In this document: piece after piece, positions 14,627-21,017 of the stretch
Layout: each line of letters opens with the position of its first letter
Numbering within the stretch: position 1 is the stretch's first letter
DNA from: Burkholderiales bacterium
GTDB lineage: Bacteria; Pseudomonadota; Gammaproteobacteria; Burkholderiales; Burkholderiaceae_C
DNA length: 36,740 bases
NCBI GenBank assembly: GCA_028869095.1
Contig: JAGWTE010000003.1
Coordinates: 1 to 36,740 of the forward strand
Reading direction: 5' to 3'
The notes under the pieces: generated by a model
Databases searched by the model: none
What the model was told of the DNA's origin: nothing
The model's input: the letters and a program-made list of their open reading frames with translations, nothing else
Position numbers and translations under genes: made by a program

Positions 14627-16561
14627 ATGTCTTTCTTTCGTTTTGCCTGGCTGGTGTTGGCGCTGTGCGTGCCCGTCCTGGCGGGGGCTGCGCCTGACGC
14701 GCGCGTGATCGTCAAGCTGCGGGCTGACTCCAGTTTGTTATCTGATTCAGGGCATGCCACAGCGCAGTCCGTGAGTGTTTCTGGCACCCCAACTGAAGGC
14801 TCAGCCCGCATGCAGCGGTTGGGCGTAAAGATGGGGGTGCCCTTGGTTGACGGACGACAACTGGGTCCCCGTTTGCATGTGGCTCAGGCGGTGGGCATGA
14901 GCTCTGCCGCGCTGGCCGCGCAATTGGCCCGTCAGCCCGATGTGGAATATGCGGTGGTCGATCAATTGCGCCGCCGCAGCGCCATTCCCAATGACCCCTT
15001 GTTTGGCAGCTCAACCACCTTGGCTGTGGGCCAGTGGTATCTCAATGACCCAGCAGCTGATCCCACGACACCGGCTTCCATCAATGCCGTGGGGGCCTGG
15101 GATCTGACCTTTGGGTCCAGTTCGGTCACGGTGGCCGTGCTCGATACGGGTGCTCGCCTGGATCACAACGATTTCGTCGGCAAGTTTCTCAACGGCTACA
15201 ACATGATCGAGAACCCGGTGCGGGCGGGCAATGGCGTGGGACGTTCATCCGACCCGTCCGATCTGGGCGATTATTTGACACAGGCGGAGATCTCTGCCGA
15301 TTCGTCCAGCTATCCGCCAGGTCAATGTACAGAGGACTTGACCAGTTCCTGGCATGGCATGGAAGTGGCCGGGGTGGTGGGGGCCGCGACGAACAACGCC
15401 ATTGGCATGGCCAGTGTCGGGGGCAACACCACGGTCTTGCCGGTGCGGGTGCTGGGCAAATGCGGTGGATATGACTCGGACATCATTGCTGGCATGCGGT
15501 GGGCTGCCGGTTTGACGGTCTCAGGTATTTCGACGCTACCGACTCAAGCAGCGCGCGTGATCAATCTGAGCCTAGGGTCAGCAGGCGCTTGCTCCTCAGC
15601 CTATCAAGATGCGATCACGGAAGTGGTGGCTCATGGTGTGGTCGTCGTGGCGTCAGCGGGCAACGAGGCGAAAGCAGTCGATGCGCCGGGCAATTGCAAC
15701 GGAGTGATTGCTGTTGGGGCTTTGCGCCACGTGGGCACCAAAGCGGGCTATTCCGCCACAGGGCCTGAGATCACGATCAGCGCGCCCGGTGGCAATTGCG
15801 TCAACGAGACAGGGCCTTGTATCTATCCCATTTTGTCGGCGTCCAATTCGGGGACTCAGAAGCCGGTGGCGGACTCGGCTGGTGGCTCTAAATACGCAGG
15901 TGGTGCAGGCACCAGCTTTTCTGCCCCCATGGTCAGCGGTACCGTGGCTTTGATGCTGGCGGTGCGCCCAACTTTGACGCCGGATGCGATCCGGCGTATT
16001 TTGATGCGCTCGGCGCGGCCGTTTCCGACCTCAGGTGTGAGCACCGCCACCGCGGCCTGTCAGGCACCGGGTAGCGTCGCCCAAGGCGAGTGCTATTGCA
16101 CGACCTCGACCTGTGGGGCCGGGATGCTGGACGCCTCAGCGGCGGTAGCGCAAGCGGTCTCCGATGGTGTGGCGAGCGTGGCGGTGACACCGGCGCAGCC
16201 CACCGCCGCCGACACCATCGCGCTCAGTGGGGCGGCTTCTTTGCCCAGTGCGTTTGGCACCACCATCACCAACTACCACTGGGATCTGATCGATGGCGGT
16301 GGCATCGTGTCGTCCTTGGATGGCGACGTGAATTCGGTCTCCGTGACAGCCCATGCCAGCGGGGCGGGGCAGTTTCAAGTGCGGTTGACCGTCACGGACG
16401 ATGTCCATGTTACGGCGTCAACGACACAGGTTGTGCTTGTGGCGGCGGCGCCGTCCTCTGGGGGCGGTGGCGGCGGCGGTGCGCTGGACGGCGCAGCCTT
16501 GTTCATGGGGCTGATCTGGCTGGGCTGGCTTGGGCACAGTCGTGCAGCGCGGCCGCAGTGA
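14627..16561 (+). CDS. S8 family serine peptidase (subtilase) with PKD-like domain and GlyGly-CTERM-like C-terminus
   Basis: Signal peptide; catalytic D (VAVLDTGARLDHNDF), H (SSWHGMEVAGVVGA), S (GTSFSAPMVSGTVALM); C-terminus SSGGGGGGGALDGAALFMGLIWLGWLGHSRAARPQ (Gly run, hydrophobic segment, basic tail). Confidence 0.92.
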   Translation: MSFFRFAWLVLALCVPVLAGAAPDARVIVKLRADSSLLSDSGHATAQSVSVSGTPTEGSARMQRLGVKMGVPLVDGRQLGPRLHVAQAVGMSSAALAAQLARQPDVEYAVVDQLRRRSAIPNDPLFGSSTTLAVGQWYLNDPAADPTTPASINAVGAWDLTFGSSSVTVAVLDTGARLDHNDFVGKFLNGYNMIENPVRAGNGVGRSSDPSDLGDYLTQAEISADSSSYPPGQCTEDLTSSWHGMEVAGVVGAATNNAIGMASVGGNTTVLPVRVLGKCGGYDSDIIAGMRWAAGLTVSGISTLPTQAARVINLSLGSAGACSSAYQDAITEVVAHGVVVVASAGNEAKAVDAPGNCNGVIAVGALRHVGTKAGYSATGPEITISAPGGNCVNETGPCIYPILSASNSGTQKPVADSAGGSKYAGGAGTSFSAPMVSGTVALMLAVRPTLTPDAIRRILMRSARPFPTSGVSTATAACQAPGSVAQGECYCTTSTCGAGMLDASAAVAQAVSDGVASVAVTPAQPTAADTIALSGAASLPSAFGTTITNYHWDLIDGGGIVSSLDGDVNSVSVTAHASGAGQFQVRLTVTDDVHVTASTTQVVLVAAAPSSGGGGGGGALDGAALFMGLIWLGWLGHSRAARPQ

Positions 16562-16620
16562 ACAGGGGCGGACGCCCTTGCGAATGACCTCGATTTGATC
16601 TGACGCAGATGTCGTGAGGA

Positions 16621-16646
16621 AAGCCAGGAAGTGTCCTGGCTTTTTT
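16621..16646 (+). terminator. Rho-independent terminator after subtilase
   Basis: AAGCCAGGA AGTG TCCTGGCTT followed by TTTT; 9-bp stem, 4-nt loop. Confidence 0.88.
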
Positions 16647-16659
16647 CAAATCTTTGCTT

Positions 16660-16687
16660 GATAATGCGAACCATTGTCATTTGCATT
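16660..16687 (+). promoter_or_regulatory. Fur box
   Basis: GATAATGCGAACCATTGTC matches 15/19 of GATAATGATAATCATTATC; nested in extended palindrome AATGCGAACCATTGTCATTTGCATT. Confidence 0.85.
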
Positions 16688-16698
16688 AGATTTGTGCC

Positions 16699-17958
16699 AT
16701 GTTGGGTTCTGTCCGTTTGCCTCTGTCCATCGCCTGGTTGGCGTCTGTTCTGGTCTTGCAAGGATGTGGCGGCGGAGGGGGTTCGACCTCGACTGCGGTT
16801 GCCGGGGCGCCCGCCCAAGCACAGTCTTTGTCGGATGTGGCGGCACTGGGCAAGCTGATCTTCACGGACAAGAGCTTGTCAGCGTCCGGCGTGCAGTCTT
16901 GCGCCAGTTGCCATGACGCCAACCGCGCCCATGCCGCCCCTAACAATCTGTCGGTCCAATTGGGGGGCGTGACGGGGACGGATCAACACGGCACACGCGT
17001 GTCGCCATCCATGCGCTACCTGCGCTACAACACCGACTTCCATTTCGACTCAGAGGGCACGCCCACAGGGGGCTTCTTCTGGGATGGCCGGGCCAGCTCG
17101 CTGGCGGATCAGGCCAAGGGCCCCTTTGTGAACCCGCGCGAAATGGCCAACGCCTCGCATGCGGATGTTGTGTTCAAGCTGTCCCAAGCCAGCTATGCCA
17201 ATGAGTTCAAGCGTGTGTTCGGTGCGGGCATTTTTGCGGACACGGAGGGCACGTACGATCGCATTGCTTTGGCCTTGCAAGCCTTCCAGAAAGAGGATGC
17301 GCAGTTTGCACCCTTCACCAGCAAGTACGACGCCTTCTTGCGCGGGCAGACCAAACTGAGCGATCAGGAGTTGCGTGGTCTGGCGCTGTTCAACAGCCCG
17401 TCCAAAGGCAATTGCTCGGCCTGCCACCCCAGCGCGAAGGGCGCCGATGGCAGCTTCCCCTTGTTCACAGACTTTTCGTACGACGGCTTGGGCGTGCCTC
17501 GTAACTGGACGATCAGCGACAACGTCACCGACCTCAACTTCTTTGATCTCGGTTTGTGCAACAGCAGCAACCCGGTTGTCAAGGCGTTGAACGATGCACC
17601 TCGCCAGGCTGTGTGCGGCAAGTTCAAGGTGCCATCGCTGCGCAATGTGGCCTTGCGTGGCGCTTTCTTCCACAACGGCGTCTTCCATGACTTGACGACC
17701 GTGGTGACCTTTTACGCGCAGCGCGAAACCAACCCTGAGAAGTGGTATCTCGATGCCAGCGGGCTGGTTGACCGCGATGGCAGCGGCAACATCAACAAGT
17801 ACAACGACTTGCCGCCTGAATATCGAAATGCGGACCACGTGAACACAACCGAGGTTCCCTACAACCGCCAGCAGGGTGACGCACCTGCTTTGACCGACGC
17901 CGAGATCCAGGACCTGGTGGTCTTTCTGGGCACGCTCAGCGACGGCTGGACACAGTGA
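16699..17958 (+). CDS. Di-heme cytochrome c peroxidase/MauG-family lipoprotein
   Basis: Lipobox VLVLQGC; two CxxCH motifs (CASCH, CSACH); KFKVPSLRNVALRGAFFHNGVFHDL typical of the CCP/MauG family. Confidence 0.9.
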   Translation: MLGSVRLPLSIAWLASVLVLQGCGGGGGSTSTAVAGAPAQAQSLSDVAALGKLIFTDKSLSASGVQSCASCHDANRAHAAPNNLSVQLGGVTGTDQHGTRVSPSMRYLRYNTDFHFDSEGTPTGGFFWDGRASSLADQAKGPFVNPREMANASHADVVFKLSQASYANEFKRVFGAGIFADTEGTYDRIALALQAFQKEDAQFAPFTSKYDAFLRGQTKLSDQELRGLALFNSPSKGNCSACHPSAKGADGSFPLFTDFSYDGLGVPRNWTISDNVTDLNFFDLGLCNSSNPVVKALNDAPRQAVCGKFKVPSLRNVALRGAFFHNGVFHDLTTVVTFYAQRETNPEKWYLDASGLVDRDGSGNINKYNDLPPEYRNADHVNTTEVPYNRQQGDAPALTDAEIQDLVVFLGTLSDGWTQ

Positions 17959-17991
17959 TTCTTTGATTTCTTTATTTTGGATACCCTCATC

Positions 17992-19269
17992 ATGAAACAC
18001 ACGATCGCTTTGAGTTGCGTGGCCGCTGGCTGCGTCCTGATGTCTGCTCCCGTGGATGCCCAAGTGGCCGCGAAGTCGTCTGCGCCCACCTCTAACAAAG
18101 AGGCTGAACTGTCGTCTCGATTGGACCAGTTGAGCAGCGAGCTGGCTGCGGTCAAGGCACAACTGGCAGCGCAAAAGCCTGTGGCGAACGTGGCGCCTGC
18201 ATCTGAAGCCCCGGCCACAGAGTCCGCCACCGTGCTGACCAGCTATGGCGAAATGGGCGCTCGCTTTTACAACAAGGACACGGGCCGCAACAGCGCGGAC
18301 CTGACCCGCTTTGTGCTGGGCTTTCAACATCGCTTTGACAGCCAGACCAAGTTGGTGACCGAGCTGGAAGTCGAGCATGCCGTGTCCTCATCCAGCGGTA
18401 AAGGCGAAGTGGCGGTAGAACAGGCCTACATCGAGCGTCAGCTCAATGCCAACTGGGCTGCGCGCGCGGGCCTGTTTGTGATGCCCATGGGTTTGCTCAA
18501 CGAGAACCACGAGCCCACGGCCTATTACGGCGTGCAGCGCAACTTTGTCGAAACCGCCATCATCCCCAGCACCTGGCGTGAAGGTGGTGTGCAGTTCGTG
18601 GGCGACCTGGATCAGGGGCTGACGCTGCAGGCGGGCTTGAGCACCGGCTTTGATCTCAACAAATGGGATCCCAAAGACGCCGAAACGGTCGGATCCCCTC
18701 TGGGTGCTGTGCACCAGGAACTGTCGCAAGCCAAGTCGCATGACTGGGGCGGTTTTGCTGCCTTGAACTGGCGCGGTGTGCCAGGCTTGCAATTGGGCGG
18801 GGCCTTGTTCACAGGCCAAGGCAGCCAAGGCCAGACGGGCGTGTCCAAGATGGGTGTGACGCTGTGGGATCTGCATGCACGCTACACCCCTGGTGCCTGG
18901 GACTTGTCGGCGTTGTTTGCCCAGGGGCGCATTTCACACACGGCAGACTTCAACCAGACCCTGGTCGGCAACCCCTACCTGGTGCCTTCACGTTTCAGTG
19001 GTTGGTATACGCAAGCGGCCTACAAGCTGTGGTCGCGTGGTGACCTGGCTTTGTCGCCCTTTGTGCGTTGGGAGCAGTTCAACACCCGTGAAGCTTTTGC
19101 CGACATCGGTGCTGGTTTGACGCCTGAAGCGGCCAAGGCCGAACGCGTGATCACCGTCGGAGCCAACCTGGCGGTGGGCTCGGGCGTGGTGTTCAAGGCA
19201 GACATCCAGCGTTTCAAGAAAAACAGCGACGACAATCGCCTGAACCTGGGCTTGGGCTGGAGTTTCTGA
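17992..19269 (+). CDS. Porin-like outer membrane beta-barrel protein (phosphate-selective porin O/P-like)
   Basis: Signal peptide MKHTIALSCVAAGCVLMSAPVDAQ; coiled-coil-like N-terminus (SSRLDQLSSELAAVKAQLAAQ); repeated beta-strand character; C-terminal LNLGLGWSF. Confidence 0.8.
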   Translation: MKHTIALSCVAAGCVLMSAPVDAQVAAKSSAPTSNKEAELSSRLDQLSSELAAVKAQLAAQKPVANVAPASEAPATESATVLTSYGEMGARFYNKDTGRNSADLTRFVLGFQHRFDSQTKLVTELEVEHAVSSSSGKGEVAVEQAYIERQLNANWAARAGLFVMPMGLLNENHEPTAYYGVQRNFVETAIIPSTWREGGVQFVGDLDQGLTLQAGLSTGFDLNKWDPKDAETVGSPLGAVHQELSQAKSHDWGGFAALNWRGVPGLQLGGALFTGQGSQGQTGVSKMGVTLWDLHARYTPGAWDLSALFAQGRISHTADFNQTLVGNPYLVPSRFSGWYTQAAYKLWSRGDLALSPFVRWEQFNTREAFADIGAGLTPEAAKAERVITVGANLAVGSGVVFKADIQRFKKNSDDNRLNLGLGWSF

Positions 19270-19835
19270 TGCGTGTCGACATTCTCAAATCGACGGTTCT
19301 GGTGCCGCTGGCGGTGGGCGCTGTTGCGCCGACCGCAGCCTTCGCCGTGGACTACATGACGCCGCAACAAGCCCAGCAGGCCTTGTTCCCGTCAGCAGAT
19401 CGGTTTGAGGTGCGAGATGTGCGTCTGGATGCTGCCCAGTTGCAGGCGCTGCAACAACGCTATGGTGTCAGCGGGCGCTCGGTAAACTGGAAGGTGTCCG
19501 TGGCCCTGCAAGCAGGCAAGGTCCTGGGCTATGTGGTCGTGGACAACGTGGTGGGCAAGTTCGAGCTGATCACCTATGCCGTGGGCGTGCAAGCCGATGG
19601 CACGGTCAAGCAGGTCGAGATCCTGTCCTACCGCGAAAGCCACGGCGGCGAAATCCGCTTGCCCGCCTGGCGCCAGCAGTTCGTGGGCAAAGGGGCGCAA
19701 GCCCCCATCAAAACGGGCAATGACATCGCCAACATCAGCGGGGCAACCTTGTCTTGCGGCCATGTGACTGAAGGTATCAAGCGCATCGTGTCGCTCATCG
19801 ACTGGGCACGTGGCGCGGGCTTGCTGAGCAACTGA
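19269..19835 (+). CDS. FMN-binding domain protein (exported, candidate ApbE substrate)
   Basis: Signal peptide; GYVVVDNVVGKFELITYAVGVQADGTVKQVEILSYRESHGGEIRLPAWRQQF; flavinylation-like motif NISGATLSC; start overlaps upstream stop. Confidence 0.88.
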   Translation: MRVDILKSTVLVPLAVGAVAPTAAFAVDYMTPQQAQQALFPSADRFEVRDVRLDAAQLQALQQRYGVSGRSVNWKVSVALQAGKVLGYVVVDNVVGKFELITYAVGVQADGTVKQVEILSYRESHGGEIRLPAWRQQFVGKGAQAPIKTGNDIANISGATLSCGHVTEGIKRIVSLIDWARGAGLLSN

Positions 19836-20569
19836 TGACGGTGTTGCGGCGGGCCCAACCTTGGTTGGGGACTTTGGTTGAAATCGGTGTGCCCTTGGGG
19901 GGCTTGGAAATGGACTGGGTCAACCAGGCAGTGGCTGATGCCTTTGGCGTGGTGGGTCAGGTTCACCGTTTGATGTCGCGCTTTGATCCTGACAGCGATG
20001 TGTCCCGTTTTCATCGCGCAGCGGTCGGGCAGCCCGTTCGCATCAACCAGCACACCCGCCAGGTTTTGCTCTTGGCTCAGCAATTGCACCAGCAGACGCA
20101 AGGCTTGTTCGACATCGCACAAGGCAGTGGCGCCTGGACGCTCGATGCAGATGGTTATTGGGCCAAGCTGGGGGCTGAGGTGCAGATTGATCTGGGGGGC
20201 ATTGCCAAGGGCTACGCCGTGGATGTGGCCATCGGCGCTTTGGCCGCCCGTGAGGTGCGCACCGCCTGGGTCAATGCGGGCGGAGACATGCGGGTCATGG
20301 GGACGGCTGTGCCGGTTGACTTGCGTGATGAAGTGCAGGGTGGGGTGCAGCGTTGGGCTCAGGTCGAAGACGCCGCCGTGGCCACAAGCTACTTTGGTCC
20401 TGATGCGCGCTCGGCACTGCATGGGCAGGCGCAGGCCTTGCATGTGACGGTGGCGGCGCCCAGCTGCGCGGTGGCCGATGCGCTGACCAAGGTGGTGGCG
20501 CAAATGGGCCTGGATGCATCGCAGCCGTGTTTGCGTTTTTTTGAAGCCCAGGCTTGGGTTCATGCATGA
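19835..20569 (+). CDS. apbE: FAD:protein FMN transferase (ApbE family)
   Basis: QPWLGTLVEI...LMSRFDPDSDVSRFH...ADGYWAKLGAEVQIDLGGIAKGYAVDVA...AWVNAGGDMRVMG...PSCAVADALTKVV, canonical ApbE motifs. Confidence 0.94.
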   Translation: MTVLRRAQPWLGTLVEIGVPLGGLEMDWVNQAVADAFGVVGQVHRLMSRFDPDSDVSRFHRAAVGQPVRINQHTRQVLLLAQQLHQQTQGLFDIAQGSGAWTLDADGYWAKLGAEVQIDLGGIAKGYAVDVAIGALAAREVRTAWVNAGGDMRVMGTAVPVDLRDEVQGGVQRWAQVEDAAVATSYFGPDARSALHGQAQALHVTVAAPSCAVADALTKVVAQMGLDASQPCLRFFEAQAWVHA

Positions 20570-20576
20570 TTGAGGG

Positions 20577-21017
20577 ATGGCTTTTCATCCTCACAAACGA
20601 CACCCTCTGCGCCCCTGGCTGCGCAGGACCATTCATACGCTGATGTTGGCTTTGCTGCTTTCGGGCGGCTTGTGGATGTGTGTGCACTTTCTGGCTTGGC
20701 CAGCGGTGGCACAGGCCAGCATGGAGGGCTTGCCCAGTCCTTGGGAAGCCACTTTGATGAAGCTGCACGGCGGTGCCATGCTGGGCATGGTGTTCATCGT
20801 CGGGCGCTTGTCAGGCACGCATGTGCTGCTGGGCTGGCGCATCAAGCAACGCGTGTGGGACGGTGTGGCCTTGCTGGCCTTGATCGGCGCTCTGGCTGTG
20901 TCGGGCTATGTGCTGTATTACTGGGTGCCCGATACCTGGCGCGACACGCTGGGTTTGGTGCACGGCCTGACAGGCCTGCTGGCGGCGGTGGGGCTGTGGT
21001 ACCACCGCCGGCATTGA
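20577..21017 (+). CDS. Four-TM histidine-rich membrane protein (cytochrome b561/DUF4405-like)
   Basis: TM segments with candidate haem-ligand His: TIHTLMLALLLSGGLWMCVHFL; LMKLHGGAMLGMVFIVGRLSGTHVL; GVALLALIGALAVSGYVLYYW; LGLVHGLTGLLAAVGLWYHRRH. 7 bp after apbE. Confidence 0.7.
   Translation: MAFHPHKRHPLRPWLRRTIHTLMLALLLSGGLWMCVHFLAWPAVAQASMEGLPSPWEATLMKLHGGAMLGMVFIVGRLSGTHVLLGWRIKQRVWDGVALLALIGALAVSGYVLYYWVPDTWRDTLGLVHGLTGLLAAVGLWYHRRH

Follow-up and report, generated by a model that had tools for sequence, protein, structure and literature searches.

Within a 36,740-nucleotide stretch of Burkholderiales DNA (hereafter the window), five tightly packed genes on the + strand encode, in order, a BthA/MauG-like di-haem peroxidase lipoprotein (16,699–17,958), a putative outer-membrane porin (17,992–19,269), an FMN-binding protein (19,269–19,835), an ApbE-family protein (19,835–20,569) and a four-helix inner-membrane protein predicted to hold two bis-His haems b (20,577–21,017). 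The peroxidase and porin genes are separated by a 33 bp gap, the porin–FMN and FMN–ApbE junctions are 1-bp overlaps, and a 7 bp gap precedes the membrane protein gene; the porin was read from the ATG at 17,992, a TTG at 17,977 being a possible alternative start. Ahead of the peroxidase start codon come the intrinsic terminator of the upstream S8 peptidase gene (16,615–16,648, + strand; a 15-pair stem and T-run) and then a Fur box (16,660–16,678, + strand; GATAATGCGAACCATTGTC; 15/19 versus the consensus). Coordinates, stem and box match all bore out the layout given in the preliminary description, of a Fur box behind a terminator leading five same-strand genes with these junctions. The S8 serine peptidase gene itself (14,627–16,561, + strand) encodes a glycine-rich C-terminal tail with a hydrophobic end that looks like a GlyGly-CTERM anchor, and the nearest relative likewise has such a gene ahead of the operon (L020:2120–4072).

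Pfam profiles identified the peroxidase (CCP_MauG, 131.5 bits), the FMN-binding protein (FMN_bind, 40.7 bits) and ApbE (113.9 bits against a cut-off of 25.6). Matches of the porin to Porin_O_P (18.7 bits) and of the membrane protein to DUF4405 (13.0 bits; cut-off 26.7) fell below the Pfam thresholds, so these two identities rest on orthologues and models; an NCBIfam profile search returned sub-threshold matches only.

Related loci were gathered with the FMN protein family as query and the best 80 were analysed. All five genes were present in the same order in 62 of these, with junctions that were mostly short or overlapping; the remaining loci mostly lacked an end gene, and some sat at a contig edge. 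The operon is present in many Burkholderiales, cultured strains included; Roseateles, Massilia and Azohydromonas are examples of cultured carriers of all five genes. Upstream of the peroxidase gene, 32 of 70 regions held a match of at least 13/19 to the Fur consensus, compared with about 1.9% of shuffled sequences and 0/316 internal operon controls; the loci are related and hence are not independent trials, but box sequence and distance vary among them while the match persists. The co-occurrence of the five families with a Fur box, sought in related genomes after the preliminary description, was thus found, and the shared order and recurring box show that the grouping is not due to chance.

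The iron control that had been proposed for the five genes is likewise supported by this conservation upstream of orthologous operons. A strict consensus search (at most three mismatches) gave no match across the window, and footprinting in relatives was used in its place: in an alignment with the nearest relatives, the sequence ahead of the operon contains a conserved block at the Fur box, which reaches to about 16,687. A relaxed pattern modelled on the site itself matched exactly nowhere else in the assembly that holds the operon (2.7 Mb; 72% complete), and two further matches with two mismatches had no obvious iron gene beside them. One Fur protein is encoded in the assembly, which supplies, beside the conserved box, the second feature looked for in a Fur regulon member. 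The operon is most likely Fur-repressed, as predicted from the conserved box. Clusters with the FMN, ApbE and haem-b genes but no peroxidase gene are mostly without a Fur box, which indicates that this three-gene core is not always iron-regulated. Fur boxes also lie just before porin–FMN units in four loci (L171, L173, L174 and L176).

The AF2 model of the membrane protein is a four-helix bundle (pLDDT 90) in which His64, His82, His129 and His143, found in all 73 orthologues, are central. With the cytosolic ends assigned by charge (positive-inside topology), His64 and His129 lie nearer the periplasmic side and His82 and His143 nearer the cytosolic side, at levels in the membrane that would accommodate two haems; the putative ligand pairing follows from these helix positions. 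A helical bundle with four central, conserved His residues is a feature shared with DUF4405 cytochromes, for one of which haem b binding has been shown (PMC10979944/PMC11334425). At E ≤ 0.1, DUF4405 matched 24 of 38 orthologues and cytochrome b561 (Ni_hydr_CYTB) 20 of 38, both weakly, and the best Foldseek match, hydrogenase-1 cytochrome b, was suggestive only (E 0.18). The initial assignment as a small His-rich membrane protein with haem b is corrected to a likely two-haem conduit in which, from the model, two bis-His haems b would be stacked across the membrane. The extracytoplasmic flavin/haem electron path that had been suggested for this operon is supported, with a possible continuation to the di-haem lipoprotein.

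The FMN-binding protein has a signal peptide, as judged by inspection, and combines the FMN_bind domain with the [S/T]GA[S/T] motif expected of an ApbE substrate: residues I156, S157, G158, A159 and T160, which include the SGAT attachment motif (157–160), are invariant among its orthologues. We infer that FMN is covalently bound there. The adjacent ApbE is atypical. An export signal or lipobox is typical of bacterial ApbE, but neither was seen in 82 orthologues of the operon protein by hydropathy and inspection. Ser185 and Asp215 are kept, but a motif search found the catalytic-His segment in 0/82 orthologues, leaving the Ser-His-Asp set incomplete; when aligned to the profile, the region that carries the catalytic His of Vibrio cholerae ApbE (PMC12052999) lies within an insertion. 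Several canonical ApbE paralogues from the same genomes keep this segment. The preliminary description had the neighbouring ApbE flavinylate the exported protein by the conventional periplasmic route, and in this form the claim was not supported; with the export signal and catalytic-His segment missing, flavin attachment by this enzyme is only putative. The operon ApbE is nevertheless the only ApbE in 6 of 12 genomes searched, so in those genomes it must attach the flavin if FMN is covalent. Known cytosolic ApbEs act on cytosolic targets (PMC12052999). In an unlikely scheme, the operon ApbE would belong to a new subclass that acts in the cytosol without the catalytic His and flavinylates its Sec-exported target either ahead of export or in the course of it; this target would feed a periplasmic ferric reductase, and a BthA-like peroxidase coupled to that reductase would clear H2O2 where Fe2+ is formed. 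In a Herminiimonas MAG, FMN-binding and ApbE domains share one open frame (L108:8821–10368), a possible fusion on which we do not rely since the adjoining porin is frameshifted and an assembly error is possible.

The closest PDB match of the peroxidase was BthA of Burkholderia thailandensis (6nx0, E 1.9e-71), and its CCP_MauG fold, two CXXCH motifs and Tyr axial ligand are those of the BthA/MauG type. Kept in all 69 orthologues are the lipid-bearing Cys23, both CXXCH motifs, Tyr339, the peroxidatic residues Gln138 and Glu148, and Cys287 and Cys306. With BthA numbered by offset, checked on three landmarks, Tyr339 corresponds to Tyr463 of that two-c-haem protein and Cys287/Cys306 to its disulfide Cys415/Cys430. 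BthA differs in having Ser257 where the operon peroxidase has Trp128, in lying beside a phosphatase gene and not in such an operon (PMC6405878), and in that the operon peroxidase is a lipoprotein. We tested by tree whether operon peroxidases form a single clade and did not find one, at least two label changes being forced, so no single origin is claimed. A second BthA-like di-haem peroxidase is encoded in the same genome (L181:672–2054, in G000:C115) outside any such operon, with no FMN, ApbE or porin gene on its 4.1 kb contig.

The AF2 model of the porin (pLDDT 81) is an outer-membrane barrel of the OmpF/OprO type with an N-terminal helix, and Foldseek matched it to trimeric porins at E 2e-12, OprO among the matches. 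Invariant Glu, His and Trp residues are abundant in the porin. These residues would suit a MauG-like modifying enzyme, in which the di-haem protein oxidises residues of a partner such as the porin to build a metal-binding site and the flavin chain resets the enzyme, as would the Tyr ligand, shared with MauG and with BthA, both of which form bis-Fe(IV) (PMC6405878). We consider this very improbable: the position of the MauG inter-haem Trp (residue 128) is Trp in the window protein and in 43 of 69 orthologues, but Arg in 19 and His in 6 (25/69 in all), and porin–FMN units occur without a peroxidase.

The best indication of function comes from the flanking genes, as genes for Fe2+ import are found next to the operon or its relatives. 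Of the 80 loci, 12 had FeoB in the flanking sequence analysed, arranged in three ways: downstream of the haem-b gene on the same strand (L063, L074, L076, L077, L079, L080, L081, L088 and L093), with a FeoA gene in between where callable; divergent (L124); and upstream, in two Derxia loci (L062 and L082). In L079 and L093 only the FMN–ApbE–haem-b core precedes FeoB. Pfam confirmed FeoA in four and FeoB in four of the sampled loci. By an estimate from locus and genome sizes, a single-copy gene would be expected by chance in flanks of this size in well under 1% of loci. FeoB was also encoded in 11/11 genomes with the operon versus 137/250 genomes of the order, a weak comparison as the genomes are related. 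Diverged porin–FMN units share a locus with P19, cupredoxin, FTR1 and Fer4_5 genes in L032, L173 and, together with ApbE, L108, and in some diverged relatives a PepSY cytochrome stands where the operon has the four-helix protein. The five-gene block itself contains no P19, cupredoxin, FTR1 or ferredoxin gene; these accompany the diverged relatives only.

The FeoB and P19/FTR1 linkage and the Fur boxes are all explained by periplasmic Fe3+ reduction ahead of Fe2+ importers, and we favour, with a probability of roughly 0.58, a Fur-repressed periplasmic module for reductive iron uptake that feeds such importers. On iron starvation the operon would be switched on; the four-helix protein would move electrons, probably drawn from the quinol pool, along its stacked pair of haems b to the periplasmic face of the membrane and hand them to the exported FMN protein, which would reduce Fe3+, free or weakly chelated, that had entered via the porin. 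FeoB would then import the resulting Fe2+, a task that a P19/FTR1 (FtrABCD-like) system would perform in relatives. H2O2 is probably destroyed by the BthA-like lipoprotein at the site where Fe2+ is produced, which would limit Fenton damage; this lipoprotein may draw its electrons from the same FMN protein. The four invariant His count for this reading; the conservation in the main lineage of a peroxidase that plain iron reduction does not need counts against it, as do FeoB being unlinked in most loci and in the genome of the window (where it lies on G000:C142), the scarcity of Fur boxes before the peroxidase-less core, and an ApbE without standard features.

The main rival turns the same chain towards peroxide: under iron starvation, electrons would run from the haem-b protein via the FMN protein to the di-haem peroxidase and H2O2, replacing iron-rich catalases, with the porin incidental. 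The peroxidase gene comes first in the operon, Gln138 and Glu148 are kept throughout, and BthA, the closest relative of known structure, is efficient in H2O2 turnover (PMC6405878); many clusters, however, keep the FMN–ApbE–haem-b core without a peroxidase, and the linked genes are Fe2+ importers and not peroxide defence genes, so that we regard this chain as unlikely. Of the two roles offered in the preliminary description, the same linkage favours reductive iron acquisition over plain peroxide defence. Many core clusters carry a DUF6662 outer-membrane barrel, mostly without a Fur box (L139, L140, L145, L150, L153, L156, L167–L170 and others). They look like a second, differently regulated branch, and the core may therefore serve other ends elsewhere. 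They would fit a quinol-linked redox pathway that serves a different metal or some extracellular acceptor and in which Fur control is secondary, a reading that is quite improbable for the operon studied here since FeoAB and P19/FTR1 linkage and the conserved Fur box point to iron.

Reductive iron uptake through this operon would follow a known working principle. Flavin-based extracytosolic electron transfer has been described with DUF4405-type cytochromes, and linked to iron assimilation via PepSY, VIT1 and P19 (PMC8238504, PMC11334425). The flavinylation-associated DUF4405 systems likewise combine ApbE, a flavoprotein and a small membrane cytochrome rich in His, four of them conserved, but have six helices whereas the window protein has four and falls below the Pfam cut-off, and the partner here is an FMN_bind protein with a porin and peroxidase (PMC11334425). 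PepSY-like and P19-associated iron assimilation resembles the operon in placing FMN-bind or DUF2271 proteins in Fur-controlled or iron-transporter clusters, and relatives of the operon include porin–FMN–PepSY units with P19/FTR1; the window operon differs in having neither PepSY nor P19, and the text of that report mentions neither FeoB nor a di-haem peroxidase (PMC8238504). Diverged relatives also adjoin P19–cupredoxin–FTR1–Fer4_5 genes like those of the FtrABCD iron uptake system of Bordetella, Brucella and Burkholderia, but the five-gene block lacks all four Ftr genes (PMC5681537). In the literature searched we did not find the combination of such a flavin/haem-b core with a BthA-like peroxidase and a porin, the FeoAB linkage or the atypical ApbE. 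The earlier view of an undescribed system thus stands for the exact combination but not for its principle, and the operon would be a new variant of flavin-based extracytosolic iron-reduction systems.

If our reading is true, it would link a flavin/haem-b iron reductase to FeoB; where the Fe2+ taken up by FeoB comes from in aerobic bacteria is, to our knowledge, often not known. An ApbE branch that deviates from the accepted periplasmic, His-dependent mechanism would be exposed as well. The operon would also assign partners and a function to a di-haem peroxidase of the BthA type, a protein whose physiological role was left open by the authors of the BthA study (PMC6405878). In one related locus (L028:3417–3878, and at the same place in L129), the peroxidase gene is cut to its ends, with the middle deleted, while the porin, FMN, ApbE and haem-b genes remain, a natural loss of the peroxidase.
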